DNA from: a virus
Reading direction: 5' to 3' (one strand)
Length of the DNA: 29,071 nt
IMG/VR virus record: IMGVR_UViG_3300024257_000048
Coordinates: 1-29,071 of that record
In this document: piece after piece, positions 625-29,071 of the stretch
Position numbering within the stretch: the stretch's first letter is position 1
Layout: the number at the start of each line of letters is the position of its first letter
Translations under genes and position numbers: made by a program
Notes under the pieces: model-generated
Seen by the model: the letters and a program-made list of their open reading frames with translations, nothing else
What the model was told of the DNA's origin: nothing
Databases searched by the model: none

Positions 625-669
625 AAAAAAAAAGATGATAGTATCTACATTGCTGTAGATACTATCATC
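625..669 (-). terminator. strong intrinsic terminator of the leftmost cassette
   Basis: A perfect 16-bp inverted repeat (634-649 and 654-669, loop of 4) is followed on the minus strand by nine U (625-633). The stop codon of the gene at 645-782 lies inside the stem, so translation to the end of that gene would melt the hairpin. Confidence 0.9.
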
Positions 670-782
670 AATGTGATAGCACTGGCTATTCCACTAAGGA
701 ATATACCAGTGATATCACTTTTTATTTCATAGTATTTACTGATTAATACAGTAAATACTATGATTAGTATTATTGCTGTCAT
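645..782 (-). CDS. 45-residue membrane protein, unknown role
   Basis: Starts MTAIILIIVFTVLISKYY and ends in a hydrophobic segment (ITLMIVSTAM), so two membrane helices with a short polar turn (EIKSD) are predicted. There are no TGA codons. It is the only gene between the phage-type promoter at 862-886 and the terminator at 625-669, with an A-rich leader before ATG. Almost the whole coding sequence is made of inverted repeats: a perfect 14-bp one at 729-763, an imperfect one at about 673-718, and the terminator stem over the stop. I do not recognise the protein. A small phage membrane protein (holin- or antiholin-like, or superinfection-related) is a guess. Confidence 0.65.
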   Translation of the reverse strand: MTAIILIIVFTVLISKYYEIKSDITGIFLSGIASAITLMIVSTAM

Positions 783-861
783 AACTTTTTTTTATTAAAT
801 TATAAGTGGATAATATAGTAGCTTAATTACTTAGTACAGTATTAGTGTACTATAATATTAT

Positions 862-886
862 CCATAAAATTTTTAGTAGTTGTGTG
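862..886 (-). promoter_or_regulatory. phage-type promoter motif, copy 1
   Basis: Minus strand reads CACACAACTACTAAAAA followed by TTTTATGG; four other copies occur at 1248, 2069, 5448 and 17008. The downstream edge is a GG that would be the RNA 5' end. From there GGATAATA can pair with TATTATCC (808-863), a 5' stem-loop. The start codon at 782 is about 80 bases downstream, and terminator 908-940 lies just upstream. Upstream flank has the small palindrome GCCTACGGC, also found in a GCCTTCGGC form at copies 4 and 5. Confidence 0.75.
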
Positions 887-907
887 TTGATTGCCGTAGG
901 CTTCTTT

Positions 908-940
908 AAAAAAAAGAGTACCTACTTATTAGCAGGTACT
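908..940 (-). terminator. intrinsic terminator
   Basis: AGTACCT (917-923) pairs with AGGTACT (934-940). On the minus strand this is followed by CTC and eight U (908-915). The TAA stop of the gene at 929-1213 is in the loop. It separates that cassette from promoter copy 1. Confidence 0.85.
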
Positions 941-1213
941 TTCTAGACGCTTGATTGCGTCTAATCTTATTATATTTAATGAGCAATCTAGTTGCTCATT
1001 AATATTTTGGTAGGTACAACCTGCATTCACAGGTGTACCATATTGAGATTCATACTCAGCAATTTCTTGCTGAGCATTTAGTGAAGCTGCATAAATTGCA
1101 GCTTCTTCTTCTGGAGAAAATTTAATTTCTCCATAAGCTTCTTCGTAATGATTGAAGAAAGTTTGAAACTCTCTTCAATCATTATGAAGAATATCTTTTA
1201 AATATTTTTTCAT
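929..1213 (-). CDS. 94-residue acidic protein, unknown
   Basis: Starts MKKYLKDILHNDGREF (the G is TGA) and has the acidic stretch EIKFSPEEEAAIYAA, then NAQQEIAEYESQYG, a CTYQN segment and a basic end (DAIKRLESTC). It is mostly helical and soluble, with no recognised domain. It is the only gene of its unit (promoter 1248-1272, terminator 908-940). The coding DNA is a chain of perfect inverted repeats: 12 bp at about 1147-1184, then GGAGAAA/TTTCTCC, GAAGCTGCA/TGCAGCTTC, CTCAGCAA/TTGCTGAG, AATGAGCAA/TTGCTCATT and AGACGC/GCGTCT. Confidence 0.7.
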
Positions 1214-1247
1214 AATGATTTATTAATATATAAATGGATATTTCTAT

Positions 1248-1272
1248 CCATAAAATTTTTAGTAGTTGTGTA
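1248..1272 (-). promoter_or_regulatory. phage-type promoter motif, copy 2
   Basis: Same 25-bp element as at 862-886, differing only in the last upstream base. The RNA would start at GG (1249-1248) and immediately form GGATA-GAAA-TATCC. The ATG at 1213 is 36 bases downstream. Confidence 0.75.
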
Positions 1273-1481
1273 AGTGTTGGATCTTTGATCCTATTTTAAT
1301 AGTCCCCCTTCCTTATGCCTATAGCTATTTAACAACGAGACTTGTTCGAGTTGTTAAAGTTTTAATTGTCTTCCTTATTTTAATCCCCCCTTCTTGAAGG
1401 GGGCTAGGGGGTTATTTTAATTTGTCTTCCTTATTTTTATTTGTCTACTTGTAGACTTGTAAACTGTTCTCCATTGTATAC
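1273..1481. other. intergenic region with C/G tracts and a short direct repeat
   Basis: No gene on either strand. It contains the hairpins GGATC/GATCC (about 1279-1291), AACAAC/GTTGTT (about 1331-1355), GTCTAC/GTAGAC (about 1443-1456) and CCCCCTTC/GAAGGGGG (about 1386-1403). The phrase TTTTAATTGTCTTCCTTATTTT occurs at about 1360 and again, with one extra T, at about 1415. It lies between the terminator at 1482 and the promoter at 1248-1272, so it may be untranscribed spacer. Confidence 0.45.
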
Positions 1482-1515
1482 AAAAAAAAAGAGACTGACT
1501 ATATTAGTCAATCTC
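1482..1515 (-). terminator. intrinsic terminator
   Basis: A 10-bp stem (1491-1500 with 1506-1515, one G-U pair in the minus-strand RNA) is followed by nine U (1482-1490). It ends the two-gene unit that begins at promoter copy 3, and its stem carries the TAG stop of the gene at 1499-1618. Confidence 0.88.
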
Positions 1516-1618
1516 TTTTCATTTTTCTCATTACTTCTGATTGTTGATTAGCAGACATTTGTCTGTAATTCTTATATCAGTTAGCTAATGAACTTCAAGC
1601 TGTGTTTGTAGTTTTCAT
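1499..1618 (-). CDS. 39-residue basic peptide, unknown
   Basis: Starts MKTTNTAGSSLANGYKNY and ends in a basic segment with QQSEVMRKMKRDGLI. All three Gly are TGA, so the gene is invisible under the standard code. The A/T leader (TTAATTATTAAATAAATAAATT) is of the type seen before other genes here. It is second in the unit promoter 2069 - gene 1659-2024 - this gene - terminator 1482. No family recognised. Confidence 0.6.
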
Positions 1619-1658
1619 AATTTATTTATTTAATAATTAAAGTAAGAACACAAGAAGA

Positions 1659-2024
1659 CTATAAGTCTTCTGCGTTCATTGCGCTTGAACCAAATGGTTC
1701 TAAGCTTTCTACTAATGTAGATAATTCTCAAGCCACAGTTAATACTGGCGCTTCTTTTTTATCTATACCTTGTTTGTAACCTTGTACAAACTTACTATCT
1801 TTATCATACACTTTGAATGATAAGATATTTCCTGATGCTTTACCTTTGATGTTACAATAAATTGTAGCATCTAATGTTCAATTAGATTGAACATATTGAA
1901 ATGGAAACACATCTTTAGTAATATCTAAATTTAATTTAGATATTACTAAATCTAAATTAGATATATGTCTAACACTTGCTATTTTAGATAAGCTTTCTCT
2001 ATTGTACCCTTTTGAATTTGTCAT
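1659..2024 (-). CDS. 121-residue protein, unknown, beta-rich
   Basis: N-terminal helix (GYNRESLSKIASVRH), then ISNLDLVISKLNLDITKDVFPF and strand-like segments (TLDATIYCNIKGKASG, ILSFKVYDKDSKFVQGY) and an acidic C-terminus (NAEDL). The two TGA codons fall at SNGT and VAGE. It is first in the unit driven by promoter copy 3. The coding DNA has several perfect inverted repeats, including 12 bp at about 1917-1943, 9 bp at about 1876-1896, and AGAAGACT/AGTCTTCT over the stop codon. Function unknown; an accessory, moron-like gene is possible. Confidence 0.7.
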
Positions 2025-2068
2025 AATCATATTGATTAGTGATAAAATATTGGCAGGAGTTTAATCTA

Positions 2069-2093: not shown

Positions 2094-2128
2094 GATGCTG
2101 GCTTGCCTGTTTTAATAAGTCCTCCATT

Positions 2129-3330: not shown

Positions 3331-4440
3331 TTATCTTTTAAATTTATCTTCTATAGATCTCTTAGTTGTAATCTCTTCTTTACCTACAGATTCTATAGTG
3401 TTCTTTAGATATGTATCTAAATATTCTTTAGTCCCTTTAAGTTCTTCTAATATTCTTTGTATAGTTTCTATATCTAAATCTGATATAGCTTTCTCTAAGT
3501 CACATATATCTTGTGTAGTCACTGTTCATACTTCCATTAAATCTCATCTAGCTCTATAGATTAATGCATCATATTCTTTTAATGTTTCCATAGCATTATC
3601 TATAGCTTTTCTATTTTTATCTTTAGACATAAAGTCTTCCACTTTGTAATCATTATATGTTTTCATTGGTTTCTTTTTAGGTGTTAAAAATGGTTTCATC
3701 ATTTCTTCTATCTCTTCTTTTGTAGGAGTAGATGATCATGATGTATAAGTATCTGTTGTATATGATACTACAGGTGAGTCAGTGTATGATGTAGATGTAT
3801 CTATAGTTTCTACATACTTCTTTAATGCATATCATCTTCTTGTAACTCTATAGTCTTCATTAGTTAATCTATATACTTCCCATCAGTCTTCTATGTTTCT
3901 TTCTTTTACTTCAAGTCTAACTCATTCATATTCTGAATCATCATCTATCTCTACTATATCTCATACTTTATAATCATATAAGTTATCATCCATATCTCTA
4001 TCGTCTCTTACTAATTCTAAATCATTTAGTTTTGTTTGATTAGTTTCTTTATTAATAGGTATTCATGGTGATTGTAATTCTAATCCTCAATCTAATATAT
4101 TAATAATCTTCCATGATTTCCATTCATTTCTTTTTCTAGATTTAAATCTAACATGTTGTCATACTTTAAATCTAGTCCGTTCTCTTGTTACTTGTTCTAT
4201 AGGATCTGATAGATAATGTTTTATATAACAACCTACAGTATAGTATACACTTTGATCTTCTGATGTATATGTAATCATCTCATCATCTAAATTTAATTTA
4301 ATATATCCTGTAGATCTACTATGTGTATATCATGTAGGTCTATTTCAAGTATGCCATTTAATACTTGTGTATTCTTCCATACGCTGAAGAAGTCTTTCAG
4401 CTTCTTCTTTAGTATCGAATTTAATATATCTATTGTTCAT
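3331..4440 (-). CDS. 369-residue protein with SH3-like (KOW-type) segments
   Basis: N-terminal part (about residues 1-30) includes KFDTKEEAERLLQRMEEYT. Two segments then look like small SH3-type barrels: FKVGQHVRFKSRKRNEWKSW and YKVGDIVEIDDDSEYEGVRLE. A Ser/Thr-rich linker (TSTSYTDSPVVSYTTDTYTS) follows, then a charged helical C-terminus. In both KVG motifs the Gly is TGA, while Trp is TGG in EWKSW and DGW, showing the two codons are distinct. It follows the lysozyme by a few bases, so the SH3-like parts could bind cell wall, but this is inference from position only. Confidence 0.75.
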
Positions 4441-4445
4441 AAGTT

Positions 4446-4811
4446 TTATTTATTAAATAAACTAAGCTCTGCATATCTTCTCTTCTTTAATCATTTGTTA
4501 TTATATCAGTATACTCACATGATATATTTAATATCTTTTATACTACATCTCTTTATGTATCTATTTATATTCATAGCATACGCTCATGTATTGTACGTAT
4601 ACGATATCATAGCTACCTTTTGGTTATCAGTGTAGCATGATTTATTTACAAGCTCATAGAGAGGATTTAAATGTTGAATGAAACGCTTGTCTCATTCCTC
4701 TCTTGTTATCTCTTCTCATCTATAACTCTTGGTACCATATCAGATACTCCGTTGCTTCCTATCCCAATATGATCTAGATCTATATCATTCAAATCTAGAT
4801 ATGAATTTCAT
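4446..4811 (-). CDS. GH24 phage lysozyme (endolysin)
   Basis: Peptidoglycan muramidase for host lysis. From ATG at 4811 it reads MKFISRFEGYRSRSYWD, with catalytic Glu at residue 8, then SIGYGT (22-27), GEEITREEGDKRF, a TDNQ motif (61-64), SYTYNTGAYA (70-79) and GLKKRRYAEL near the end, all in the GH24 order. Glycines of FEG, the first of IGYG, and NTG are TGA. At 121 residues it is short: a helix matching the usual N-terminus (SVSEGVRQRA) is encoded just upstream in the same frame, which stays open to 4943 but has no ATG, GTG or TTG. Either translation starts at 4811, or at an unusual codon, or by frameshift from the preceding gene. Confidence 0.92.
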
Positions 4812-5496: not shown

Positions 5497-6654
5497 TTAA
5501 TAAAATAAATTCTTTAGTCCATTGATAACTTCCTCTATCCAATCTAATCTTCATTTCATATTACTTATCTCTGTCTTTAGTTTTATTATCTCTGTATTCT
5601 GATCTGTTAATCTAGTCTCTAGTTTCAATACTCTTGTAGCTAACTCCATATCTATACTAGGTGATGGAGTAACTGGAGTTGGTTTAACTATTGGAGTTGG
5701 TTTAACTATTGGTGTTGGTTCTATTACAATAGGTTCTTGAACCTTATCATTTGTAGACTCCTCGTCTCCTCCTAGTTTTAATCCTCATAAACTATTTAAT
5801 GCTGCTTCTATATTCAATGCTACATCTCATCCAGCTGGCATCTTAGTTCCTGTTCTTATTAATGTTTCTCTTATCTGTTTATATGTTAATGTTGGATCTA
5901 CTTCTAACATCAATGCTATAGCACTACTAATCTGTGGTGCTGCGAATGATGTTCATGGTTGTCTATGTATAGTTCCATCTCTATCTAACATGTCTGGATA
6001 ATATCCTTTACCTAATATCTCTGTGTGTTCTGTATTATGGTAGAACTTTTTCTTATATATAAAGTTTCCTTTATGTGAATAATAACTTCATACACATATA
6101 ATACTATTGTCTTCACAATGATATGAGTTAGATATCCTTGCTTTGTTTTGTAATGTAGTTACTACCATTATCCCTGCATCAGTTAATTCTTTTAGCTTAG
6201 CTGAATATTCTTTGTTCCTCCATGTTACACTTAAGTTCACTATCTTAATATCTCCTCTAGCTTTTATCTTATCTAGTATAGGTACTAACTCTTGGTATCT
6301 ACATGATGTACCATTACAGTAATCATATCTAATTACTTCTGCTCATGGTGCATATCATACTAATCATCCATCATTATGTGATGATGTGATTAATGATTCT
6401 ATTCCTACTCAATGATCTGAATTAGTAAAGCTATCTATTACTGCTATCTTAATTCATTTACCTGTAGCTTTATCCCATGCTCCATAAAAGTCTGATACTT
6501 TAAATGATCCATCTCTTGTTGATTGATAATATGAATCTCATTTGTTTCATTCAAAGTTTAATTCACTTGGTGTATATGCATGAGCCTTATTAATCACACA
6601 TCATATAAGCATTACAAATAATACTATTGTAATTATAGTTAATATTTTTCTCAT
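5497..6654 (-). CDS. secreted subtilisin-like (S8) serine protease, lipoprotein
   Basis: The N-terminus (MRKILTIITIVLFVMLIGC) is a signal peptide with a lipobox LIGC (Cys19; the Gly is TGA). The catalytic triad is readable: Asp74 in IAVIDSF, His81 in SDHGVG and Ser236 in PGTSFAAP, with a likely oxyanion Asn170 (TTLQN). The Gly before TS is TGA. After the catalytic domain come a KPTPIV proline repeat (about 310-335) and a C-terminal coiled coil (RVLKLETRLTDQNTEIIKLK). It is the last gene of the replication unit and is followed at once by promoter copy 4. An exported phage protease next to lysis genes may cleave surface or envelope proteins, or act in superinfection control; the target is unknown. 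Confidence 0.9.
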
Positions 6655-7601: not shown

Positions 7602-7974
7602 AAATCATTTTATTATTCTTAGTAAATAGTACTGTCTTATATAATTCAGATACTCTCTTAATAGTTTGTGGTGACATCTTATCTAATGTCCTTCACTTAT
7701 CTCCTTCTTTATATCTAGTCTTAACTCATCTAGCTATTAAGTTTTCTTTAACTACTAACTCATAGTTCTCTTTGTTTCTTTCTCTAGCTAGATCTATACT
7801 AAACTCACTCATGAGTTTAGCACATCTATCTAGTCAGAACTGTTTACGATAATCTGATGTTAACATTCTATGTGTCATTCTTAAATGTGATCATAATTTA
7901 TTAAATGATTTATCACATAACTCACATATAACTTTTCATTCTGTATCGTATCTTACTGGTATATATTTATTCAT
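7582..7974 (-). CDS. MucR/Ros-type zinc-finger protein
   Basis: Residues 15-50 read VICELCDKSFNKLGSHLRMT then HRMLTSDYRKQFGL, the Ros/MucR pattern: Cys17, Cys20, His30 and His35 as zinc ligands, followed by the typical Y-R-x-x-[FW]-G-L. The Gly residues of KLG and FGL are TGA. The rest (to 130) is basic and helical, with QTIKRVSELYKT. Proteins of this type bind DNA as regulators or accompany phage DNA-processing proteins. It overlaps its neighbours at both ends (8 and 20 bases), so it is part of one translation-coupled run. Confidence 0.85.
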
Positions 7975-8428
7975 AATAATCTAAATTATATTTATTATAT
8001 ATCGTTTGATATAAATAGCTTGGATGTTTTATTACTTCATCTGATCACCAGTATCATTCCCACATAACTCATGTCCTGTTCTCATCTAACTCTACCCATA
8101 TGTTAGGTCATCCAAATGTTAATAGTATTTTAAATATTCTATTCCTATCTGATCTAAATACTTCTATCTCTAATGGTTGATCATCATCTATATATTGTTG
8201 TAGTCCATCTTCATTTTCTACTGCATATACATCATCTTCCCATTCATCTTGTTCATACATATCTTCTGGATCATCATCATACATAGATACATAATCTTTA
8301 TATTCTGTATCTAGTTGTTCTTGTAATCAAGGATAGATATGTTTAACTATATAATCTAATGTAGTTAATTCATTGTAATCATTCATCTCTTCTATAAATG
8401 ATTCATATATTCTTTCTAAGTCTGTCAT
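7967..8428 (-). CDS. 153-residue very acidic protein, unknown
   Basis: MTDLERIYESFIEEMNDYNE, then an Asp/Glu-rich middle (YDDDPEDMYEQDEWEDDVYA, IDDDQPLEIEV) and a Trp-rich C-terminal part (GPNIWVELDENR, WEGYWGSDE). In the last segment the codons are TGA TAC TGG TGA, so TGA and TGG stand side by side as Gly and Trp. The strong acidity would fit a DNA-mimic or inhibitor protein, but that is speculation. Confidence 0.72.
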
Positions 8429-8581
8429 AATTGTTTTAGTTATAAGTTAATCTAATCTTTACTTCCTTTAATAATTGTTCTAATCTTTTCTCTATTGAGA
8501 TAAGATCTTTTTTCTCTACATGATTACCATATAGTAATTGATTAATAATTTCTAAGTCTGTCATAATTGTTTTAGTTATCT
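8417..8581 (-). repeat. duplicated 30-bp translation-start module
   Basis: The stretch containing TCTAAGTCTGTCATAATTG and its continuation TTTTAGTTAT occurs at about 8417-8446 and again at about 8552-8581. Each covers the leader and the first codons (MTDLE) of a gene (8428 and 8564). Part of it (CATAATTGTTTTAGTTAT) recurs at 10152. It shows the preferred leader of this genome, ATAACTAAAACAATTATG, or a recent local duplication. Confidence 0.75.
8436..8564 (-). CDS. 42-residue protein, unknown
   Basis: MTDLEIINQLLYGNHVEKKD, then a helical, charged second half ending KEVKIRLTYN. It shares its first five residues and leader with the next gene (start 8428), so the start region of one may have been copied from the other. 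No TGA codons. Confidence 0.6.
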   Translation of the reverse strand: MTDLEIINQLLYGNHVEKKDLISIEKRLEQLLKEVKIRLTYN

Positions 8582-9075: not shown

Positions 9076-9531
9076 TTATTTTAAGTTAAATAAATTAAGT
9101 ATATCTCTATAAGCTGCTATCTTACCAGCTTCATATTCTTCATTGTTTGGTAATGATACTATCTCATGATAGATATCATCTGCTTTACATTTATCTTCTT
9201 CACATAATCCTTTACCTAATACTTCTATTCCATTTCTATTATGCAATAAGTATTCATAACAATCTTCTATCTCTGATTCTAAATACTTAGCTACTTCTTT
9301 ATCTGTATCCTTTAATCATACTTCATATCATCTAGTATATCCTTGTTCCCGTAATTGATTCTCACGTTCTCCATCTGGATCTATCCTTTCTAAATCTGAT
9401 TCGTATTCTTCTAATATTTCTTTATGTTCATCTTGTTCTTCTTGATCTGCTGTGTCATCTAATTCTCCACACCGTTCTTCAGCAAACTCTCTTGGTAGTT
9501 GCTCTTGATATTCCTTTAGTTTAATTATCAT
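9076..9531 (-). CDS. 151-residue acidic protein, unknown
   Basis: N-terminal two thirds are strongly charged: ELDDTADQEEQDEHKEILEE and YESDLERIDPDGERENQLRE. Then a segment with GYEVGLKDTDKEVAKYLESE, IEDCYEYLLHNRNG and ADDIYHEIVSLPNNEEYEAG. Only one Gly is TGA, at the join RG-YEVG. It overlaps the upstream gene by 7 bases. Conserved-looking but not identified. Confidence 0.72.
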
Positions 9532-10517: not shown

Positions 10518-12014
10518 TTATAAGTTATAATTTAAATTAATCTTTTTATCTTTAGTTACTTCAGTAACTATCATTTGTAATCATTCACATTCTTTGATTA
10601 CTTTATCCCTTAGGTTGATACCTATGCTTTCCCAACGATCTATAAGAATGAAGTCTATCTTTAAATACTTAATGAATAATTTTGCTAAGAGTATCTCTAT
10701 AAATAATTCATTCCCTGTACTTGTACTTCCGTATTGATTTCATTCTGCATCATAGATCTCAAATGTTTCTCTAGTGTTCCCATTCTTTAATGTCTTGAAT
10801 AATCTTATATCTAATCCTGTCTCTTTAACTTTATCTTCTAGTCTAGTATTAAACTTAAGTCTCTCTGCTTGCTTCTTCTTTAAATCTTTCTCAAGCTTTA
10901 CAAAGTTCAAGTCTTTAAGTTGTTCTTCTTTAATCTTAATCTCTGCAAGATATGATTCTCTTTTATTAATTACTTCTTGATAATCCTTAAACTCTTTAAG
11001 ATATCTTTCGTAATCAGCATTATCCCTTTCTATATATTTCATTCAGATTATCTCTGCTCTCTTCTTTACTTCTAATGTGTAATCAGATCTATAATCTGTT
11101 TCTCTTTCTAATCATTCCATTGCTTCTTCTATATGTTCATCTATATCAAATATAATAACTTGTAACTTATTCTTTAGTTCAGCTTCTTTCTCTAATACAT
11201 CTCTGTATTTATCTCTTAGATTCAATACTACTTCTTCTTTGTCTTTTCATTTGATAACTGTACCACATGAATCACAAGTATATTCCATAGAATCTTTCTT
11301 AGCTTCAGCTGCTTTATCTGCTAACTTAATCTTTAATGTAGTAAGACTTTGTATCTCTGTTTCTAAATGAAACTTTTCTTCTGCTTTATATTTCTCTGCT
11401 ATCTCTTTAGTTCTTCTATTATCTTCTGCTATCCTTTCGTTCTCGTCTTTAAACTTTTGTATCCTAGTATTATATGCTGCATTAATCTCATCAGCATTTC
11501 ATTCTATTAACTTAGCTTCTTCTGGTTCTTCTAATGCTCCATCAAGACTATCAGCATATCATTCTATTCTTATGATGTCATCTGTGATCTGATCTTTCTT
11601 TGTATGAAATTGTTTAATCTCTGATTCCATATTTCTTATCTCTTCGTTTATTTTTTCTATCTCATCTCAATCTATATTTAATATCTTAGTAATTATTTCT
11701 CTCTGCTTTACAGTCGAGTTTGTTAACTTGAAAAAGTTTCAAGGTAATATGTATCTGATAATCTCTGAATCTATTATCTCTCCTATTATCTTCTTACCTT
11801 TCATTATAACATTCCCTTTGTCTGTCTCTAATTCTACTTTTCATTCTGGTAATCAGTTACCATATCATGGATAGCTTCTACCATAACAAGCCATTATACA
11901 ATTAAGTATAGTTGTTTTACCTAACAATGATTGACCTCCTAAGATGTTTGCATCTTTAAATTGTAGACTACTATCTATTCCATGTACTCCATTCACCTTA
12001 ATACTTTTAATCAT
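10518..12014 (-). CDS. SbcC/Rad50-like recombination ATPase
   Basis: 498 residues. The N-terminus has a Walker A loop (GGQSLLGKTT, residues 26-35). Two long coiled-coil arms flank a CxxC (YTCDSCGTVIKG, Cys247 and Cys250), in the place of the Rad50 zinc hook. The C-terminus has an ABC-like signature (STSTGNELF, about 430-438) and a Walker B-like strand (IDFILIDRW). Such proteins pair with a nuclease subunit to process DNA ends; T4 gp46 and T5 D13 are phage examples. It is shorter than most. The partner could be the PD-(D/E)XK nuclease nearby, since no Mre11/SbcD-like gene is visible. It starts 3 bases after the primase-helicase gene. Confidence 0.85.
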
Positions 12015-12017: not shown

Positions 12018-13847
12018 TTATTTATTATTAAATCAAAGTTTCTTTCTCTCTCTCCTTTGTTTCTGTAATGTAGATTCTCACATAATAATTCTACCATTAT
12101 GAAATCTACCAAAGATAACTCATAACCAACTCTTTCATCTGTTCTTAGTTATGATATACTTAACACTCTTACCATCTCATTTAATAGCTTCTGTATTAAC
12201 TTCATCTTTGTCGTTAGATATATGTATAACCTTATTAGCTACCTGTGCTATAGCTGCTCCATCTTTAAATGAATTGTTATCTGGATCTTCATCCTTCTGT
12301 AACTTCCTATAGTGTGATACTAATATACATGCAACCTTATACTTCCTAAGTAAATCATTTAACTGATGCATGAAATTCTCTATAGCTAAATCATGTCTCT
12401 CGTTCTTCTCAAACTTTACATAATGTAAATGATCTATCACTACTAATGATACTCATTTGTTTATCACTACATCTTTAAATAAGTTTTCTAACTGATGGAT
12501 GTCCACCATCTTCTTATGTGCTAAGTCTATTATATTAAAGTTATATCTCTTTAAGTTTATAATAGCTTGATCTATATTTACTAGTATTCAATGATAATCT
12601 TCTTCAGTAAATAAGTTAGCTTCAAACATAGAATGGCTAGGCATCCTATCGTTTCTCTTAACTCTCATTCTATTAACTTCATAGTATATATCATTAATCC
12701 TGTTCTCTTCTAGTCTATCCTCTAATGAATATCTAGCTACCTTGAATCATTGTCTCGCTACATTGTTAGCTATCTGATTACATATCGTACTCTTCCCTAC
12801 TCATGTCACTCATCATACTACTGTTAGTTGTCATGGTAATAAATATCATAGATGATTATCGAACTTCTCAAATCACCAACTCATTACTGATCATTCTGTT
12901 CTTTCTTTTAATTCTTTGTATCATCTATCTAATCATTCGCTGTAATCTATTAATGCAAATGTTCTCTCCTTAGTTTGTATCGATCAAGCTATAATCATAT
13001 CAACCAATCAATTTCATAATTGCTTACCTAATTCATTCATATCTTCCTCTTCTTCTATCTCATAGATATCCGCTTCTATACTCTCTTTGAATACTTCCTT
13101 ACATTTCTTACCTGCTGCATCATTATCAAATAATAAATATATCTTACTAAATTTATTAATGAATGCTACTATCTCTTCAGTAGGCTTAGCTGATGCTGAT
13201 TTAAATCAGATGACTTGTTCTGTATACTGTCTTAGTGTTAGAAAATCTGTAGCTCATTCTACTAAGAATATATAATCTTTCTTTAGATCCTTAGTAAAGC
13301 TCCAGAATAATCCATCACTTCAATTAGTATTAAATCCTTTTCATATTAAACTCCTGTATTGATATCATGTCTTCTCTCACTTAATGTCTCTCATCATTAT
13401 TGATAAACATTGTGTTTCTCATGATGGTGCATTCTTTCCGAATGTCACTGACTTAGTTAATCATACTATACCTTTTGGTAATGCTTTATAATTTATTCAT
13501 CTTAGAAATAAATATGAAGCTAATCTATCTTCATCATTTATAACCTCCATTTTCTCTATAGGTTTTCTTGGTTCCTCTATCCCTAGACTGAATGCTTTAT
13601 TAAACCATTCAATAGCATCTGGTATACTTGATCCTGTATGTCATATATAAAAGTTCAATGGATTCCCTTGTGGTCTCCATTCCTTAGCTTGATTAAAGTT
13701 AGATACTATATTATTTTTTATATCATATGTATAACTATCACTATACTTATTATCATCAAATAAATATTTTCTATTATTGTATTTAATTCATAATAGTTTT
13801 AATACTTCTTCAATAGGTAATTGTTTTATCCTTTCTATAATTTCCAT
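12018..13847 (-). CDS. bifunctional DNA primase-helicase
   Basis: 609 residues with the plan of T7 gp4. An N-terminal primase-like part lacks clear zinc Cys. A TOPRIM domain follows, with IFLVEGATDF (Glu197) and LLFDNDAAGKKC (240-249). The RecA/DnaB-type helicase has Walker A GGVTGVGKST (345-354), a Walker B strand SLVVIDHLH and a sensor-like ILVSHYRK. In Walker A three Gly codons, and in VEG the Gly, are TGA. It unwinds DNA and primes lagging strands for phage replication. It shares TAATG with the upstream gene. No DNA polymerase is seen in the window, so that may lie outside or be supplied by the host. Confidence 0.93.
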
Positions 13848-14179: not shown

Positions 14180-14791
14180 TTATTTAATTAAATCTTTAAT
14201 CTTTTCTAACTGTTCATTAGTTAATTCTAATGTAACCTTTTTCTTTTCTTCTTCTATTACTATATATCATTTAACTCCATATTCATTCAATTTTATTTCT
14301 TTTCATTCTTCTAATTCTATAATTTCATATACATCTCTTCTTACTACTACACATTGTTCACCTGTCTTAAATATACAATTCCCTCCTGTATCAAATATAC
14401 AATTATAACCTGTCTTAAATTTACATTTAACACCTGTATTAAATGTACAATAAGAACTTGTCTTAAATGTACAATGTGACTTTGTATCAAATGTACAATC
14501 TGAACCTGTCTTAAATGTGCAACTAGAACTTGTATCAAATGTACAATCTGAACCTGTATCAAATGTACAATGTGAATTTGTATCAAATGTACAATCTGAA
14601 TTTGTCTTAAATGTACAATCAGAACCTGTATTAAATGTACAACTAGAACCTGTATCAAATGTTACTCAATCTATATTATTGAAATCTAATACTAGATTAT
14701 TTTCTTTACTACTAAATGTTTTAGTAGCTTCATCAAATGTATATTTACTTTTGTCTAGTTCTTTTCAGAACTGTGTTATACTGTAATTCAT
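14180..14791 (-). CDS. octapeptide Cys-Thr-Phe repeat protein
   Basis: 203 residues. About residues 44-150 are roughly thirteen 8-residue repeats of the form x-T-G-S-x-C-T-F (for example NTGSDCTFKTNSDCTF). This points to a beta-solenoid whose coils each present Cys, Thr and Phe. It ends QCVVVRRDVYEIIELEEGKE, then a charged helix. Related Cys-repeat proteins with the VRRDV ending occur in other phages and large viruses; their role is unknown. Gly in the repeats is GGT, whereas flanking Gly codons (FGKEL, DGV, EGKE, KGY) are TGA. The regular 24-bp DNA period could expand or contract by slippage. Confidence 0.85.
14347..14665 (-). repeat. 24-bp tandem coding repeat
   Basis: About thirteen degenerate copies of a unit reading, on the plus strand, like AATGTACAATCTGAACCTGT (plus four bases), in frame with the octapeptide protein. 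There are no unique spacers, so it is not a CRISPR array. Confidence 0.88.
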
Positions 14792-14807: not shown

Positions 14808-14939
14808 TTAAATAATAATTCAATCGTCCTCTAGTTCCTTTCTTAATCTATTGTACATTTCTATATTACCTTTCTTATATTCTTGTATAGCTCTATTTGC
14901 TTTCCCTTCTATTGCTGCTCCTATCATTACGTTAGCCAT
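14808..14939 (-). CDS. 43-residue protein, unknown
   Basis: MANVMIGAAIEGKANRAIQE, then YKKGNIEMYNRLRKELEDDG and III. The start overlaps the end of the nuclease gene (14932-15537) by 8 bases. The protein is helical and charged. One Gly near the end is TGA. Confidence 0.6.
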
Positions 14940-15537
14940 CTTTGTTTTTATTAAATAGTAATATTGTTTCTTTATATTCTAATAGTTCTAGCCATATATC
15001 TGTGTAGTATTTTAAATTCTCTACCTCTATAAATTCAAACTTCTTCTTATTCATATATAATATGTATCAGTTGTTTAGTCATGACAACCGACAATATGCT
15101 GCTATCTGAATTTTATATTTCTCATTTTTTCTTATAGATGTTTTGTAATCTACTACTCATAAATTTGTTATAGCATCTATTGTACCTCTAATTCATTCTT
15201 TGTAAAATGTCTTCTCTTTATCTACTATAGTAATACTATATAATAATTTCCATTCTCTGAATCTCTTGTAATAATCTTTATGTTTATAATCTATCTTTTC
15301 CTTATCTAACATCTCATGTACTGCATGTCATCTATCACATGCTTCTTGTAACTTCTCTCAATGATTCTGTTTAATGTATGTGAATGATGGATCTTCTATG
15401 ATAGATAATAATTCTGTTACTGATATATCATCAGTTCCATATCTACCATAGACTAGATCTATTCATAACTCATATCCATTATCTGAACAAAACTTTTTTA
15501 ATTGTCCAAAGTTATTTGTTCCATTCTTATTAATCAT
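14932..15537 (-). CDS. PD-(D/E)XK nuclease, RecB/Cas4-like
   Basis: 201 residues. Motifs in order: ACDRGHAVHEML (about 67-77), IRGTIDAI (Asp121), VVDYKTS (Asp130, Lys132) and YKIQIAAYC (Gln144). This is the RecB-nuclease-domain arrangement, with Asp121, Asp130 and Lys132 as the metal site. Glycines at RGH and GVVD are TGA. It probably degrades or trims DNA ends in phage recombination or host DNA breakdown, and may work with SSB and the SbcC-like ATPase encoded in the same unit. It overlaps its upstream neighbour by 40 bases. Confidence 0.85.
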
Positions 15538-15836
15538 GATATCGTATCTCAAATAAATATATCTAATTTAATCATAGCTTCTACTACATCTCATAAATCT
15601 TCTGTAGCTTCACCATACTTAAATCTATGTGTTCCATTTGTTGATTCTATAACTATAGGATTTATAGTAGCTTTATTAATTGTAGCATTAAATTTTTCTT
15701 CTACTATAGTTATATTAAATAATTCTTCTAAATTGTTTATTGTCTTTATATCCTCATAATCAAATATAAACCAAGCACTAGTTGTTCATGGTTCACTAGT
15801 ACCCATTCACTTCTTATTATTAAAACTTAAATTCAT
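15498..15836 (-). CDS. 112-residue protein before the nuclease, unknown
   Basis: MNLSFNNKKGMGTSEPGTTS, then AWFIFDYEDIKTINNLEELF, a strand-rich middle (INPIVIESTNGTHRFKYG) and DLGDVVEAMIKLDIFIGD. The last 40 bases overlap the nuclease start in another frame. If translation were to shift, the two would form one protein, but both frames have their own start and stop. Possibly a recombination accessory protein. Confidence 0.65.
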
Positions 15837-18149: not shown

Positions 18150-18695
18150 TTATTTTTCCATCTCTTCAATGAAACTTACTGCTTCATCAAATCAATAACA
18201 GAATTCAGCTTCATGTCTTTCACGAGTATTTAAATATTCTATCCATTCCTTTTGTTCGTCACTACATCTAATCCCATCTGTACTCAAAGCGTAATAAGTT
18301 CAGTCAGCCTTTTTGCTACGCTTCTTTTTTAATTCTATATGTAGTGTCCATCAATTCTTCATGTAAATAGTAAAGTCTGGATATCAAACTTGTAATCACA
18401 TACGCTTCTTCTTAAGTGCTGCAAACATTCATGCTTTACCTGCTACTCCAGATTCATTCGGTGTGTGTACAAATCTATATTCATTCCTTTTTAAATACCA
18501 TGCTAATCTTTCAGCATCTGTATCCTCTTTAGCCTGTCTCGGCTTCTTTGGTTTCTTGAGTATTGAGTCTTCATTTTTTTTCTTGATCTTTGATTTACAT
18601 CTATCAACAGCATTATTAATCATGTTCTCATGTATCGATACAGATTCTACTTTTAATCATAAAGCTTCTGCTTCTTCTATACTTATGCGAACCAT
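18150..18695 (-). CDS. VRR-NUC-type nuclease
   Basis: 181 residues. A basic N-terminal arm (CKSKIKKKNEDSILKKPKKP) precedes the nuclease fold: HTPNESGVAGKAGMFAALKK (about 77-96), GLQVGYPDFTIYMKNGWTLH (Asp107), IELKKKRSK (Glu121, Lys123) and SDEQKEWIEYL (145-155). This is the PD-(D/E)XK order of VRR-NUC proteins, common in phages and thought to resolve branched DNA. In YMKNGW the codons TGA and TGG are adjacent as Gly-Trp. Its start overlaps the membrane-protein gene upstream by 13 bases. Confidence 0.88.
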
Positions 18696-21751: not shown

Positions 21752-23500
21752 CTACGCTTTAACGTAATCAACGTATACAACATCACCAGTTTCTAATGCG
21801 TCAGTAAAACTAATTACACCAGCAACATTACTATAGAATTCAGTTCTAAGACCATTTAAGTATACACCTTTAATTGAAGCAGGAGTATTAGTTAATGATA
21901 CATCAGTAGATGCGTCAGTAACAGTAGGAGCTTCAGCGTAAACTTCTTTAGCAGTTTCAGCGTCTGTATAATCTTTAGCGTCTTGTAAATTTTTAGCCAT
22001 TGATCCAGCACCAGAACCGTTAATAGTTGCTATAGCAATAGTGTTAGTATCACAGTTTCCGTCAACTTCATTAATTGCACCAACTACAGTTACTTTGTGA
22101 GCAGTAGTTAATGTAGTTAAATCACCAGTAGCTCCAGAAGCGTTATTAGCAACTTCATTAATAGCAGCAACTAAAGTATTTTTAGCTGTAGTAGTTAATG
22201 AACTTAATGCACCAGTGTTAGTTTCAAGAGTAGTTACTCTAGCTGTAACAGCACCTATCGCAGTTTCGATTTCACCCATTGTATCCATAGCTGTAGAAAC
22301 AGTACCTTTAAGTTCGTTTTTAGCAGCAGTGATATCATTAGCAACAGTAGTAACGAAATTTTCATCATCACCAATAGCAGCAGCTAATTCATTAAGTGTA
22401 TCTAATAATCATGGCGCACCATTAATTAAAGCAGAAACTTTAGTATCTGTATATGATTGAGCGTCAGTTAAGTTTTGAGCCATTGATCCAGCACCACTAC
22501 CATTAATAGTAGTAATAGCTGATTCAGCAGTATCAACTCTTCCTTCAACTTCGTCTATAGCAGCTTGAACGTCAGTAGCATCTAAACCACTAGTAGTGTT
22601 AGTATAACTAATTTCATTAGCAGCATTTTGAGCATTAAGACCAGCAGTTAAATCAGAAGCTAATTTATTTAAGTCAGCTTTAACAGTACCTTGACCTACA
22701 TTAGATGTAGAAGTAGCGTTTTCAGCAGAATCTTTAATAGATTTAGCAACAGATCCAGCAACAGTATCAGCACCGTTTAATGTATCTATAGAAGAATCAA
22801 CAGTATTGAAAGCGTCTTTTACTGTAGCACCAGATACATCTGATGAATTAGAAGCGTTTTCAGCATTATCTTTAATAGATTTAAGAACTGAACCAGCAAC
22901 AGAAACTGTATCATTTAAAGTAGTAATAGCTGATTCAGCTGAATCAACTCTACCTTCAACTTCATCAATAGCAGCTTGTACATCATTAGCAGCTAATCCA
23001 CTTGTAGTGTTAGCATAACTTGTAGTACTTGCAGTTTCAGCTTTTTCAGTGTTGTCAACTTTATCAAGATCAGCTGCAGTTGGTACTCCAGTAACAGCTT
23101 TATTGAATATGATCATATCACCAGCGTCATAAGAAACTCCTAACATTGTACCTCAAACAGATACTTTATAGAAGTCACCTTGCCCACCATTTGCAATATC
23201 ATTTTCACTTTGTGTAGAAAGATCTAAAGATCCTTTATATTCTAACCCTGAAGATAGGTTAGCTATTTCTTGATCAACGTAACTTTTGTTAGCTGCATCA
23301 GTATTAGCTACTGGTGTTGCTACAGAAGATACTAATTGACCACCCATGTTTAATACTCCAGTCATTGCAACTGAACCATCTCTTAGAATAAGATCAGCAC
23401 CTTGTGCTAATTTAGCTAAAGCTATTGTTGAGTTAGCTATCTCATTATTCGTAATAGAACCAGCTTTTATTTGTCTATTACCATCAATTTTTATTCCCAT
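21752..23500 (-). CDS. tail fibre / virion protein, low in TGA
   Basis: 582 residues. The N-terminus MGIKIDGNRQIKAGSITNNE is followed by VLNMGGQLVSSVATPVANTD and AANKSYVDQEIANLSSGLEY, a tail-fibre signature seen in many phages. Then come several copies of a heptad-like module (YANTTSGLAANDVQAAIDEV, EGRVDSAESAITTLN), a trimeric coiled-coil shaft. The C-terminus (GVYLNGLRTEFYSNVAGVIS, TGDVVYVDYVKA) resembles the small beta domain at 23555-23812. Only two codons are TGA (after KVSV and after INGAP), although Gly is common and mostly GGT/GGA. It also uses GCG and other G/C-ending codons more than its neighbours, suggesting separate ancestry or selection on expression. Confidence 0.87.
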
Positions 23501-25113: not shown

Positions 25114-25374
25114 TTATTTTAATTTAAAAATAAATTTAATATTGTCATACATACCGTTAGCAGCTAATCATACTAAGAATCAATTAAGCATTATATCTTT
25201 AGTGCTTAAATCAAATAATAAATAAACTATTCATGCCGCTAACGGGAATGTAAACAATGGTAATAGTTTTTTTATTAATTCTCCTCCTAATGATTTCTTC
25301 ATCATTTCTGTTACAACTAACACTATAGGTGTTACTATTATAACAGTTTGTTCTATTCATATATATTCTATCAT
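25114..25374 (-). CDS. small phage holin
   Basis: 86 residues. Helices: about 8-24 (QTVIIVTPIVLVVTEM), 37-54 (LLPLFTFPLAAGIVYLLFDL) and 60-75 (IMLNGFLVGLAANGMYDN), ending in a short charged tail (IKFIFKLK). The order VTEMMKK, then FPLAAG, then NGFLVGLAA-GMYDNIK is that of small phage holins of the A118/LC3 type, which open the membrane for the lysozyme. The lysozyme gene is 20 kb away in the window, an unusual separation. Gly codons in AAG, NGF and VGL are TGA. Confidence 0.8.
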
Positions 25375-25723: not shown

Positions 25724-26635
25724 TTAAATGTTATTATCTTCATATTTATCAGATACATTCGCCATTACTATAAGTAAAAATTTATTTATAATATTAGCCT
25801 TCTTTTGTTTAAATAATTCTTCTGTTATATTTTCTTTAGTATCTTTTAATACTTCATCTATCTGTTCTAATAATTCTCAAAATCTCATTTGATGAGATGC
25901 CCAGAATTTTTCTATTATCTTTATGTCTTTTCATGATGAGAATATTGCTTTCTCTAGATCTTGTCATATAGATTTAAATAATAAATTTATATGTATTTTG
26001 AACATCCTTGTGTTCGTAGTATTAAAACTATCTATATCTAAAATTATTCTTTTTAAAAATATAATTTTAGTTTTAAATAAATCTTTCATATCTGTATTTG
26101 GTATATGTTCTATATATCTATCCAGTTGTTCAAGATTATTTGTATACTCTTTTGTAAATTTATACCCAGTGATTCATGTTATTTTTTCTTTTAAAAATTG
26201 ATTCTTATGTACTGATAGAAATTCTACTAGTACTGGATGTATCTCCATTCATAATTCCTCAAGGTTTTCAGCTATACTAGATAAGTTATTTAATATTAGA
26301 AATCATGCAAATGCTCATACGAACATCTCTACATGAAATACTAAGTTCATTGTATATCACATAAACAGTAATATACTATAACTTACTAATTTCCATATTC
26401 ATTTATAAAAACCTCTACTACTAAATACTTTATATTTAATAGCTTTTAAAGATCATAATAATGTATCAACTAGAAATAACATAAATACAGCGTTTACTAT
26501 GGTTTCGTTTCATACATAAACTAAGTTCATGTAACTTAATCCAATACCAAGTACAGCTTTAGTTATGAAGTTATCTGTGAGTATAACTTTTAGATATACT
26601 AATATAGTTTTAATTCAGAATACTTCATTTAACAT
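25724..26635 (-). CDS. Phage_holin_4-like protein with long C-terminal domain
   Basis: 303 residues. Residues about 1-140 match the toxin-secretion/phage-lysis holin pattern: FMLFLVDTLLGSLKAIKYKV, FSSRGFYKGIWKLVSYSILL, VGAFAGFLILNNLSSIAENL and EELGMEIHPVL. Several hydrophobic helices are present. Such holins normally end near residue 140; here about 160 charged, helical residues follow (YIEHIPNTDMKDLFKTKIIF, KFWASHQMRFGELLEQIDEV), ending in a hydrophobic patch. The extension is unusual and may regulate lysis timing. Gly in LLG, KGI, AGF and ELGM is TGA. Confidence 0.82.
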
Positions 26636-26653: not shown

Positions 26654-26755
26654 TTATTCTTCAGTTTCTTCTGATATCTCTAATGATTCATCAGCGAACT
26701 GGTCATTTGTGATTGACTCTTTCTTTATTTGTCAACCATTTATCCTCATTCACAT
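26654..26755 (-). CDS. 33-residue fibre-like N-terminal fragment or peptide
   Basis: MGMRINGGQIKKESITNDQF then ADESLEISEETEE. It resembles the first residues of the large fibre at 21752-23500 (MGIKIDGNRQIKAGSITNNE). It has its own stop TAA and A/T leader, so it is a separate small gene or the remnant of a fibre gene. Confidence 0.5.
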
Positions 26756-26766
26756 ATTTTAGTTTT

Positions 26767-26922
26767 TTAATTATAAGTTCATCCATCTATTGATCATGAA
26801 GCATCAGAAATAAAATCTAATACTTCCTGTGATAGATCAGATAATTTTATTGTACCATCCTTTATATCTATTCATTCGATAGTATTATCTCTTATTTGAG
26901 ATGATTTTATTTCTGGTTTCAT
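26767..26922 (-). CDS. 51-residue fibre-like small protein
   Basis: MKPEIKSSQIRDNTIEGIDI, then KDGTIKLSDLSQEVLDFISD and ASGSIDGGTYN. The QIRDNTIEGIDIKDGTIK stretch is the short beta-repeat common at the bases of phage fibres. Together with the 26654 and 26935 genes it looks like a set of small virion attachment proteins. Confidence 0.58.
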
Positions 26923-26934
26923 GGTTTATATTTA

Positions 26935-27186
26935 TTAAGCTAAATCATTAGGATTTGTAAAACTTGTTACTTCTCCCATTTTTACCCATTTTAAAGATCC
27001 TCATACATTTGCATAATAATATGCTGTATTTGAAGAAGATATGAATGTATCTCATTCAGAATATGAAGCATTTGGGTCAGTTCAAATTACGGTATTAATT
27101 CATCCTCATGCATTAGATAATTCATTATCAAATTCATTTTTAGTATATACTTCTGTATTAGAAGATATACTTCATAAATTTCACAT
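26935..27186 (-). CDS. 83-residue fibre-like small protein
   Basis: MGNLGSISSNTEVYTKNEFD, then NELSNAGGGINTVIGTDPNA and SYSEGDTFISSSNTAYYYAN, ending VKMGEVTSFTNPNDLA. The start MGNL is shared with the fibre at 27323-28795 (MGNLQNPRG). YTKNEFDNEL resembles the fibre-repeat phrase YTKTEVDNAI in that same fibre. Six TGA codons. Probably a virion protein. Confidence 0.6.
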
Positions 27187-27322
27187 AATTTTTTTATTAT
27201 TAAAAATTAAATATGTGGAGAGAATTAACTCTCCTTATATTATATAACTAGATATACAATTTCTTCTTACATTTCTGTATTAATTATTTCAGTATACCTA
27301 TTATCTATTAAGTTATTAAAAC
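27187..27322 (-). other. intergenic leader with hairpin
   Basis: No gene. A perfect hairpin GGAGAG/CTCTCC around AATTAA (27213-27230) lies about 30 bases before the ATG at 27186, on the 5' leader of the small fibre genes. A TATACT sequence occurs further upstream (about 27290) but without a convincing -35. Confidence 0.4.
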
Positions 27323-28795
27323 TTATTTAATAAGTAATTCATTTGCTGTAATAGCTATACCAGCTTTTACTGAATTATCTCAAGGATTTACACTTATAGC
27401 TCATATTCAAGAATGAGTATTAGTTCAAGAAATTACAAAATACATATCATAACTACCAAAAGATGCTCTTGCTTTATGGAATACTCAATTAGAATATGAA
27501 CCAGTAGAATCTCAATAAATTCTTCTTGTTTTACTTCAATCACTCATAGTGAATTCAATATAATAAGTTCAAGTATTTAATAATAAATTACTAAATCAAT
27601 AGTTTATATCTTGATCAGAAAAGTTTCATGTATATGTATTATCTGATGTTTTAATTAATGTTCATCCTACTGAATCATAAACTTTACAAGTAACTACAAC
27701 TCAATGATAAAACATACCTCTTATTTTTATATTAGATATATTTATAGCTTCTGTTACAGTAAATGTTTGTCAATATGATTCATTTTGAAATCAATCTCAA
27801 ATTACTTCATGTTGATCTGTATGCTGTATATTTAAAGAACCTGCAGCTTGTGATATATAATAATTACTACCTATACTTAATCCTGTATTATTACTATTTA
27901 TTCATACTAAATCAATTTGTATATTACCTCAAACAGTAACTGTTTCAGTAGCAAAACCTACAAATCAAGATTTATTTAAATCTGAAGAGTCAGTTAAGTA
28001 TACTTTTCAATCTGTAGAATTTATATATATTGATTGTCCAGCTGTTATATTTCCTCAAGCAATTAATGAAGTTGTAATATTTCATCCTCCAACATTATTA
28101 ATTGCATTATCTACCTCTGTTTTAGTATAAGTAGTAGCTTGATTAGCTTTAGTATTAACTAATGCAGTTAATGTTGTATCATCATATGTAGCACCATCAG
28201 CACCAGCAATACCTTGTGGTCATTGTGGTCAGATTAAACCTCCATTAATATCAGCAGCTAGTGTAGCAACTACATCAGCTAATTGATCTAATGTTGTAGC
28301 GTTAGCATCATAACTTCTTTGAGTTAATGCATTAGCTACTGTATATGTAGGTAATACAGATACATCAGCAGCAGTAGCTTTAGAATCTAAAGCAGCTTGT
28401 AATCCAGCTATACTAGCTATACTTAAAGCATCTAGATCACTTCTATTTAATTTAATAAAATCTACAATTTCTTGTACTTCATTTAAATCTACATCATTAG
28501 AAGCAACTAAAGTATTTAGATTATCTATTAATCCTTTTAATACTTTACCTTGTTCAGCTGATAATACAGATCCACTACCACCAGTTGTAACATCATCAAC
28601 TACATGAGATGTATTTAATGCACTTAATACATGAGTATCAAATACACTTTTTGTATTTAATTGAAATGAACTAGTGTCAGTTTTTTTAATAAAAACTTTT
28701 TCATCTATTTCATTTATAAATATTTCACCAGCTTTTCTTTCTGCTGGCATCGTAAGTCCAGAAGTTAACCCTCTAGGATTTTGTAAATTTCACAT
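27323..28795 (-). CDS. tail fibre with short collagen-like segment
   Basis: 490 residues. Start ATG TGA at 28795 (MGNLQNPRGLTSGLTMPAER); an internal ATG at 28750 follows. Residues 15-190 contain GEIFINEIDEKVFIKK and GGSGSVLSAEQGKVLKGLID, a fibre phrase common in phages. A Gly-X-Y stretch (GPQGPQGIAGADGAT) follows, then YTKTEVDNAINNVGGGNITT and a beta-rich C-terminus (IGDGFQNESYGQTFTVTEAI, SFGSYDMYFVISGTNTHSGI), probably the receptor-binding end. After the ATG TGA start, the first 180 codons have no further TGA, while the C-terminal half has more than twenty, so the gene looks like a mosaic. Confidence 0.85.
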
Positions 28796-28821
28796 ATTTT
28801 ATATGAATTAAAAATTAAAGA

Positions 28822-29071
28822 TTAATAATATTCTCAACCGTCCATAATAAAGTTTCAATCTATTCAAACTCAATCAGCTCATGTTTCCCCTTGTATTCAT
28901 TGTATTCATTGTATTCATTGTGCTCATGTTGCTCAATCATTTCAATCAACTCATGTTGCTCATGCGGCTCCAGTAGGTCATTGTATTCAATCTTCTCATT
29001 GTATTCATTGTGCTCATGTTGCTCAATCATTTCAATCAACTCATGTTGCTCATGCGGCTCCAGTAGGTCAT
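28822..29071 (-). CDS. collagen-like fibre protein, 5' part outside window
   Basis: The visible C-terminal 82 residues are an unbroken Gly-X-Y tract when TGA is Gly: GPTGAAGATGVDGNDGATGA then QGIQGEDGIQGPTGAAG, repeated, then GETGADGVGIDGNFIMDGGE and a stop. In the visible part most Gly codons are TGA (a few are GGA or GGG). Collagen-like trimers are common in phage fibres. This tract is the strongest single proof of code 25: Trp in every third position would make no sense. The start codon lies beyond position 29071. Confidence 0.9.
28906..29071 (-). repeat. exact 76-bp direct repeat, 90-bp period, in the collagen-like gene
   Basis: Positions 28906-28981 and 28996-29071 are identical, offset by 90 bases (30 codons, ten Gly-X-Y triplets). 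The repeat reaches the end of the window and may continue. Identity at the DNA level suggests a recent duplication, or possibly an assembly edge within a longer array. Confidence 0.9.

Follow-up and report, generated by a model that had tools for sequence, protein, structure and literature searches.

What do the codons TGA and CGG mean in a tailed phage with a non-standard genetic code, and is TGA used evenly among its genes? These questions are raised by a viral stretch of 29,071 bases (the window), which is the complete IMG/VR record IMGVR_UViG_3300024257_000048, and in which an earlier reading of the letters (the original prediction) had taken TGA as glycine throughout. We consider it likely that the phage writes glycine with TGA and tryptophan with CGG, that it relies on host tRNAs for both codons, and that selection acts against TGA in its most expressed genes.

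Bases 1-29006 of the window are found with 100% identity within a 64,028-base record, IMGVR_UViG_3300000216_000001 (G001), and the right end of the window crosses the join between the ends of G001, where 36 bases are repeated. This makes the genome circular or circularly permuted, and the window nearly half of a tailed phage of ~64 kb. G001 adds genes for RecA, a terminase, a putative portal, a putative capsid and tail proteins, together with an open reading frame (ORF) of 4657 amino acids (aa). A second record, IMGVR_UViG_3300027996_000026 (G002; 66,648 bases), is broadly syntenic with G001, with 68% identity for the helicase, 63% for the terminase and 65-66% for the putative capsid.

TGA as a glycine codon

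Reading TGA as sense raised the coding density of the window, counted over ORFs of at least 60 aa, from 0.266 under code 11 to 0.825, and that of G001 from 0.246 to 0.898. Reading TAA or TAG as sense gave 0.677 and 0.396 in the window, and both were rejected on this basis. With TGA as sense, 41 of the 43 window ORFs lie on the minus strand (mean 187 aa). In a set of 50 minus-strand window ORFs picked by hand we counted 308 in-frame TGA, 259 GGN and 57 TGG codons, so that no other single glycine codon is as common as TGA. That these ORFs end in TAA (42) or TAG (8) follows from the code used.

The original prediction had pointed to dozens of in-frame TGA codons in such frames and to their position on invariant glycines, and the examples it gave are present. 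The Walker A motif GVTGVGKST (12786-12812) has the glycine codons TGA, TGA and GGG, the S8 protease motif GTSFAAP (5935-5955) and the KVGD motif (3958-3969) each have TGA, and the lysozyme has TGA in RFEG (4785-4796) and TGA then GGT in IGYG (4734-4745). In the collagen-like tract, a run of 23 G-x-x triplets contains 21 TGA codons, 20 of them at the triplet glycine. TGG occurs beside TGA in the two regions that had been named, 7967-8428 (four TGG, five TGA) and 18150-18695 (three TGG, seven TGA).

A comparison of code 25 with code 4 had been proposed for the lysozyme, the S8 protease and the helicase, and it favored glycine over tryptophan in all three. We scored four Pfam families with different residues placed at TGA (between 4 and 10 of the 20 for each family), and glycine ranked first in four of four, with tryptophan the lowest of the residues tried in each. 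The bit scores were Gly 47.0, Cys 35.1, Ala 35.0, Ser 32.8, Asn 29.7, Arg 24.2 and Trp 20.4 for the lysozyme (PF00959); Gly 57.5, Ala 42.7, Ser 42.5, Cys 37.1, Arg 37.0 and Trp 32.9 for the S8 protease (PF00082); Gly 59.5, Ala 48.2, Ser 48.0 and Trp 43.3 for the holin; and Gly 71.9, Ala 70.3, Ser 69.5 and Asn 69.0 for DnaB_C, in which the other residues tried scored less, with Trp last at 51.2. The margin of glycine over alanine is small in DnaB_C, and the helicase alone would not separate the two. We also compared 25 gene pairs of G001 and G002 with TGA masked, in which 523 columns pair TGA with another codon, 125 of these being GGN, and a further 169 columns have TGA in both genomes. The log10 likelihood of the 523 columns is -645 for glycine, -716 for serine and -1158 for tryptophan, so that glycine is ahead of serine by 70 and of tryptophan by 512.

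On this sequence evidence TGA is glycine. The meaning given to TGA by the original prediction therefore stands, but its "throughout" does not, with a fibre-like gene (21752-23500) using TGA at only 2 of 50 glycine codons and the left ~900 bases of the window having no ORF longer than 46 aa. Code 25 is likewise right for TGA but incomplete, in that CGG behaves as tryptophan.

TGA use among phage genes and in host-class ribosomal-protein genes

The putative capsid gene of G001 has TGA at 1 of its 30 glycine codons, versus 538 of 848 in 24 other conserved genes (p 9e-12), and that of G002 at 10 of 33, versus 648 of 815 (p 4e-9). A capsid homologue in a distant prophage-like region of a bacterial genome (G023) shows the same pattern, with TGA at 1 of 34 glycine codons versus 235 of 690 (p 2.8e-5) in a background made up of the whole fetched region, neighboring genes included. 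The 2 of 50 in the fibre-like gene corresponds to a binomial p of 8.5e-17 versus the genome. TGA is dense in other genes, for example the terminase (37), two tail-region genes (61 and 45) and the replication helicase (31), and a 1972-aa gene of G002 is mildly TGA-poor (119 of 188). The TGA-poor capsid and fibre genes prefer GGT and C-ending codons, and the fraction of two-fold codons that end in C is 0.38 in the G001 capsid gene and 0.36 in the fibre-like gene, the highest among the genes listed, with 0.156 for the genome. A high C-ending fraction is a usual mark of translational selection. The depletion of TGA in the putative capsid gene can be read directly from its codons, and this gene is probably the major capsid gene.

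Ribosomal-protein genes offer a comparison in bacteria that share the code. Genomes of the host class were reached using a DNA motif for GHVDHGKT with both glycines as TGA, which is a cheap route to genomes in which TGA is glycine; in genome contigs this word was seen at eight loci, by their titles five of Gracilibacteria, two of Patescibacteria and one of an uncultured bacterium. Among 117 genomes, 22 have TGA in L14, and 20 of these were taken, one of which had no background stretch, leaving 19; two of the backgrounds are short (5 and 8 kb), and small same-strand ORFs around L14 were taken as ribosomal genes. The choice of genomes with TGA in L14 works against finding depletion. In this analysis, 15 of 19 genomes have ribosomal-protein genes that are TGA-depleted relative to background (Wilcoxon p 0.005; Mantel-Haenszel odds ratio 0.56), with p<0.01 in 12 of them, for example 0.21 versus 0.66 in G116. 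We found no earlier report of expression-linked TGA avoidance, judged mainly by titles and the openings of abstracts.

Several observations weigh against selection on highly expressed genes as the cause. The depletion is reversed in 4 of the 19 genomes (G140 and G040 with p<0.01, G037 and G013 with p<0.05), and across genomes the extent of depletion shows no correlation with C-ending bias (Spearman -0.17, p 0.49). The RecA gene of G002 is also TGA-poor (13 of 33), without C-ending bias, and the C-ending fraction of the G002 capsid gene (0.23; genome 0.146) is not the highest there. The capsid identity itself comes from gene order and weak matches to PHROG major head proteins (E 0.19 in G001, 4.8e-4 in G002); the predicted structure has a mean predicted local distance difference test score (pLDDT) of 33, i.e., a failed prediction, and a profile search of PDB with the putative capsid returned nothing (best E 1.3).

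An alternative is that the TGA-poor capsid and fibre genes were newly acquired from phages with the standard code, so that their codons show origin and not expression. This would suit the fibre-like gene, which has a GC content of 0.35, no match in G002 at E 1e-4 and matches that are only partial both to other viral records and to phage tail genes. The putative capsid gene, however, lies in a conserved terminase-portal-capsid order, is 66% identical in G002 and has a homologue in G023, with the bias in all three, and the ribosomal genes of most host-class genomes are also depleted. We therefore regard recent acquisition as an unlikely explanation, although the best placed of the alternatives considered here.

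CGG as a probable tryptophan codon

The 72 ORFs of G001 contain 13 CGG codons and a single CGA, with one of the CGG in an ORF judged spurious. After filtering on flanks, six CGG columns could be compared with G002, where the facing residues are W, W, Y, Y, L and V, and none is R. The log10 likelihood of these columns is -5.76 for tryptophan, -7.44 for tyrosine and -15.84 for arginine, and -2.94, -5.43 and -12.15, respectively, without the giant 4657-aa gene; the collagen gene pair was omitted from the likelihood tests of both CGG and TGA, its one CGG column facing TGA in a meaningless alignment. In random draws of six columns, a preference for tryptophan over arginine as strong as that of CGG was seen in 0 of 5000 draws from arginine codons and in 4319 of 5000 from TGG. 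Individual sites agree with this. The lysozyme CGG (4749-4751) stands directly before SIGYG, at a position where we take tryptophan to be usual, and reading it as tryptophan gains 4.2 bits (47.0 to 51.2), while the CGG of the exonuclease-like gene (15088-15090) is opposite TGG in G002.

The tRNAs of host-class genomes point the same way. A tRNA(CCG) with A1:U72 and G73 is present in G116, G091, G010, G090 and G140, i.e., in five of the six genomes whose tRNAs were examined, and the small set of tRNAs retrieved from the sixth, G125, has none. The same A1:U72 and G73 occur in four of five tRNA-Trp(CCA) (those of G116, G091, G010 and G125, not that of G140), and the tRNA-Arg(GCG) of G116 has A73, unlike tRNA(CCG). 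These pairs were read by eye, with all 32 matches fetched for G116 and only some for G091, G010, G090, G125 and G140, and with tRNA identity rules taken from the relevant parts of Shulgina and Eddy 2021 (PMC8629427). Taken together, these data indicate that CGG is most probably tryptophan. As for CGA, there is one in G001 and three in G002, and the sole aligned CGA faces glutamine; G010 carries a tRNA(UCG) with A73, and CGA may therefore still be arginine in that genome. In a literature search for phages of Absconditabacteria with CGG as tryptophan, the one paper found was that of Shulgina and Eddy.

The competing view is that the phage uses plain NCBI code 25, with CGG as ordinary arginine and the tryptophan signal arising from a few sites. 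CGG is indeed rare, only six columns are usable and two of these lie in an alignment of 27-32% identity; in 9076-9531, two CGG codons have charged surroundings, a setting in keeping with arginine; reading CGG as tryptophan in the G001 fibre gene leaves the CBM_5_12 score unchanged and moves that of Collagen only from 50.2 to 52.3; and CGG is arginine in some Gracilibacteria, according to the sections of Shulgina and Eddy (PMC8629427) that treat them. Against this, none of the six columns is arginine, tryptophan leads arginine by 10 log10 units (9 without the giant gene), the lysozyme site gains in score, and G090, G010 and G116, the three genomes nearest to the phage in codon usage, all have the tryptophan-like tRNA(CCG). 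We judge an arginine CGG to be improbable, marginally more so than recent acquisition of the TGA-poor genes.

Host and tRNAs

With ARAGORN at default settings, no tRNA was detected in the window, in G001 or in G002, which agrees with the original prediction that the window has no tRNA-Gly(UCA) and extends it to the whole genome. Lax settings gave up to 204 candidates per phage genome, of which 0 to 8 had a UCA anticodon depending on the setting, and these were taken as noise. Four host tRNA-Gly(UCA) compared with G001 and G002 had no match in either, and an Rfam scan of G001 at gathering thresholds also gave no match. A search of viral contigs with a designed tRNA-Gly(UCA) pattern gave no hit and is uninformative, since host tRNAs have a different D-arm. 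Within the host class, tRNA-Gly(UCA) is present in G027, G040, G091 and G125. The earlier suggestion that the host tRNA is probably used fits both the lack of phage tRNAs at default settings and these four genomes; a point against it is G116, which is among the best-fitting genomes and in which none of the 32 tRNA matches is a tRNA-Gly(UCA).

Among 19 genomes, the codon usage of the phage is nearest to that of G090, G010 and G116 (r 0.96, 0.95 and 0.94), which are low-GC genomes with almost no CGA; G010 includes a contig (locus L061) titled Candidatus Gracilibacteria. This ranking among 19 genomes, which is not proof, suggests a low-GC Gracilibacteria-type host. An Absconditabacteria or Gracilibacteria host had been proposed at the outset, and code and codon usage speak for it, but the CRISPR spacer match that was to link the two was not found: 60,000 of the 64,028 phage bases gave no link in 353 genomes at E-value cut-offs of 1e-5 and 1e-6, at which spacers shorter than ~28-30 bases would be missed, and the host may be absent from these genomes. 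The matches from this search were mostly collagen or coding-type similarities of 69-94% identity; only part of them were inspected, and no repeat array was present at the four candidate places checked.

A distant relative of the terminase was found in one of the 353 host-class genomes, G023, beside homologues of the portal (27% identity) and the putative capsid (23%, E 4e-16). This terminase-portal-capsid module lies in the bacterial assembly contig G023:C33 (L257, L258). A second bacterial assembly of the class, G114:C501 (L086), has a stretch resembling the phage helicase gene, with 69% nucleotide identity over 154 bases. The helicase query found no relative in bacterial genome contigs and four weak relatives in the phage collection, and the terminase alignment found no further viral record.

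Borges et al. in 2022 reportedly described stop-recoded phages of standard-code hosts, for the late genes of which timing by the phage's own suppressor tRNA has been proposed. The phage studied here likewise uses a stop codon as sense, but, unlike such late-gene code-switch phages, it has early and late genes alike recoded and no detected tRNA. This bears on a further alternative, namely that TGA is avoided in late genes to allow growth in a standard-code host or to time expression, which could draw on the standard-code-compatible phages targeted by Gracilibacteria spacers that Liu et al. 2023 mention in their account (PMC10746230). Against it, the replication helicase and other late genes (terminase and tail region) are rich in TGA, and a suppressor tRNA was not detected in G001 or G002 at default settings, so we consider this explanation very improbable.

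Proposed explanation and comparison with known systems

Under the explanation that we favor, the phage genes would be written in the code of the host, with TGA as glycine and CGG most probably as tryptophan. No tRNA was detected in the phage, and both codons would therefore be read by host tRNAs, a tRNA-Gly(UCA) and a tryptophan-type tRNA(CCG). Translational selection would remove TGA from the most expressed genes, where a UCA tRNA that is slower, scarcer or more error-prone would limit the ribosome. Both this mechanism of the cost and the host assignment are inferred. In a BD1-5 bacterium, peptides presented by Hanke et al. 2014 include rare single non-glycine readings of UGA (Trp, Ala, Asp, Lys) beside many glycine readings, at least in the portion of that work that concerns them, and this fits a cost in accuracy. 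Such peptides would allow low-level misreading, but a phage that reads TGA as tryptophan (code 4), as some other residue or, through suppression, in a mixed way is hardly credible, with tryptophan refuted as the principal meaning by the Pfam scores and the masked likelihoods, TGG already serving as tryptophan, and TGA placed on the collagen triplet glycine.

More broadly, we think it slightly more probable than its opposite that in bacteria and phages with TGA as glycine the reassigned TGA stays costly to translate long after its capture, with selection on expression barring it from capsid and ribosomal genes while mutation raises it above all other glycine codons elsewhere, and that the phage follows its host to CGG as tryptophan. 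If true, the cost of a reassigned codon would be measurable: genes expected to be strongly expressed avoid TGA, namely the three related putative capsid genes and, in the majority of host-class genomes sampled, the ribosomal-protein genes. A phage with the same change at CGG would mean that viruses, too, follow reassignments of sense codons, and would sharpen annotation, in which code 25 alone places arginine at tryptophan sites.

That TGA is glycine in phages of these bacteria has already been published. Liu et al. 2023 in mBio (PMC10746230) described phages and prophages of Absconditabacteria and Gracilibacteria that use code 25, and, from the parts of that article available to us, those phages are like this one in being in IMG/VR, in a large gain of coding density with TGA as glycine and in dense in-frame TGA; their hosts were set by CRISPR spacers, unlike the host proposed here. 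Liu et al. also suggest that a high density of TGA may make translation more efficient, and the capsid and ribosomal-gene data point the opposite way. A word search of the available text of their article found neither CGG nor capsid. Phage RSA-ATP1 (mBio 2026, PMC13059738), as presented in excerpts of its report, is a phage of Strigamonas methylophilicida of the Absconditicoccaceae and likewise a complete tailed code-25 phage with a predicted patescibacterial host, but it carries four tRNAs, including its own tRNA-Gly(TCA), whereas none was detected in the 64-kb phage. In the bacteria, passages of Shulgina and Eddy 2021 in eLife (PMC8629427) give CGA and CGG as predicted tryptophan in Absconditabacteria and CGG as tryptophan in some Gracilibacteria. 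The Absconditabacteria code resembles that of the phage in TGA as glycine, CGG as tryptophan, low GC and very rare CGG; it is a prediction for bacterial genomes, in which CGA is slightly more abundant, unlike the 13 CGG and one CGA of G001.

Gene map and other features of the window

Features with an assigned position are collected in Table 1.

Table 1. Features of the 29,071-base window, read with TGA as glycine
Feature	Position	Strand	Basis or remark
Collagen-like fibre segment	28822..29070	-	23 TGA, 4 GGN; 5'-open here, continues in 64-kb record; G-x-x run
Tail fibre protein, 490 aa, 24 TGA	27323..28795	-	PF22337, phrog_19602
Holin (Phage_holin_4_1), 303 aa, 12 TGA	25724..26635	-	59.5 bits with TGA as Gly
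Small holin-like protein, 86 aa, 4 TGA	25114..25374	-	phrog_1299, E 2.7e-7
Fibre-like protein, 582 aa, TGA-depleted (2 TGA, 48 GGN)	21752..23500	-	Tail-fibre PHROGs
VRR-NUC nuclease, 181 aa, 7 TGA, 3 TGG	18150..18695	-	PF08774, E 2.6e-5
PD-(D/E)XK exonuclease-like protein, 206 aa, 7 TGA	14932..15552	-	phrog_298, E 2.5e-11
CGG codon best read as Trp	15088..15090	-	Faces TGG in the G002 exonuclease
Tandem-repeat protein, 203 aa (CTFxTxSD repeats)	14180..14791	-	24-nt repeats; no convincing family match
Primase-helicase (Toprim and DnaB_C), 609 aa, 31 TGA	12018..13847	-	PF03796, PF13155, phrog_239 (E 5.5e-46)
SbcC-like ATPase, 498 aa, 12 TGA	10518..12014	-	phrog_77, E 8.3e-11
S8 subtilisin-like protease, 385 aa, 13 TGA	5497..6654	-	PF00082, 57.5 bits with Gly
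GH24-type lysozyme, 121 aa, 8 TGA	4446..4811	-	PF00959, 47.0 bits; 51.2 with CGG as Trp
CGG codon best read as Trp	4749..4751	-	PF00959 score up 4.2 bits with Trp in place of Arg

The repeats of the tandem-repeat protein, which perhaps form a beta-solenoid, correspond to a 24-nt tandem repeat at 14360-14662 with 12.6 copies, and the long overlapping ORFs in other frames stem from this repeat. An exact direct repeat of 31 bases (8413-8443 and 8549-8579) lies on either side of a small ORF (8436-8564). Short segments of the fibre-like gene (up to 77% identity over 39 residues) are common to many other viral records, as if fibre modules had been exchanged. Beyond the window, the giant ORF (G001 34273-48246) lies upstream of the terminase and has 207 TGA codons, with a counterpart of 4191 aa in G002; two pieces searched had no PHROG match, and its first 1909 aa had no match in Pfam or PDB.

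Window positions 1-880 have no ORF longer than 46 aa and correspond to G001 28127-29006, with the ORF-poor stretch continuing to ~29420 beyond the window; its homologue in G002 lies at L064:16361-17660 on the minus strand. G001 28474-29404, i.e., window 1-533 and ~400 bases beyond, has 71% nucleotide identity with G002 over 986 positions (E 1.5e-90). Window 100-790 shows strong structure, with z of -19 for the minus and -10 for the plus strand (20 shuffles each), and the stretch matches no Rfam family at gathering thresholds. It consists of near-invariant core blocks and an A/C-rich tail, and two core words of 20-21 bases occur only in G001 and G002 within the viral collection, making it a candidate for a large structured RNA or a replication or packaging element.

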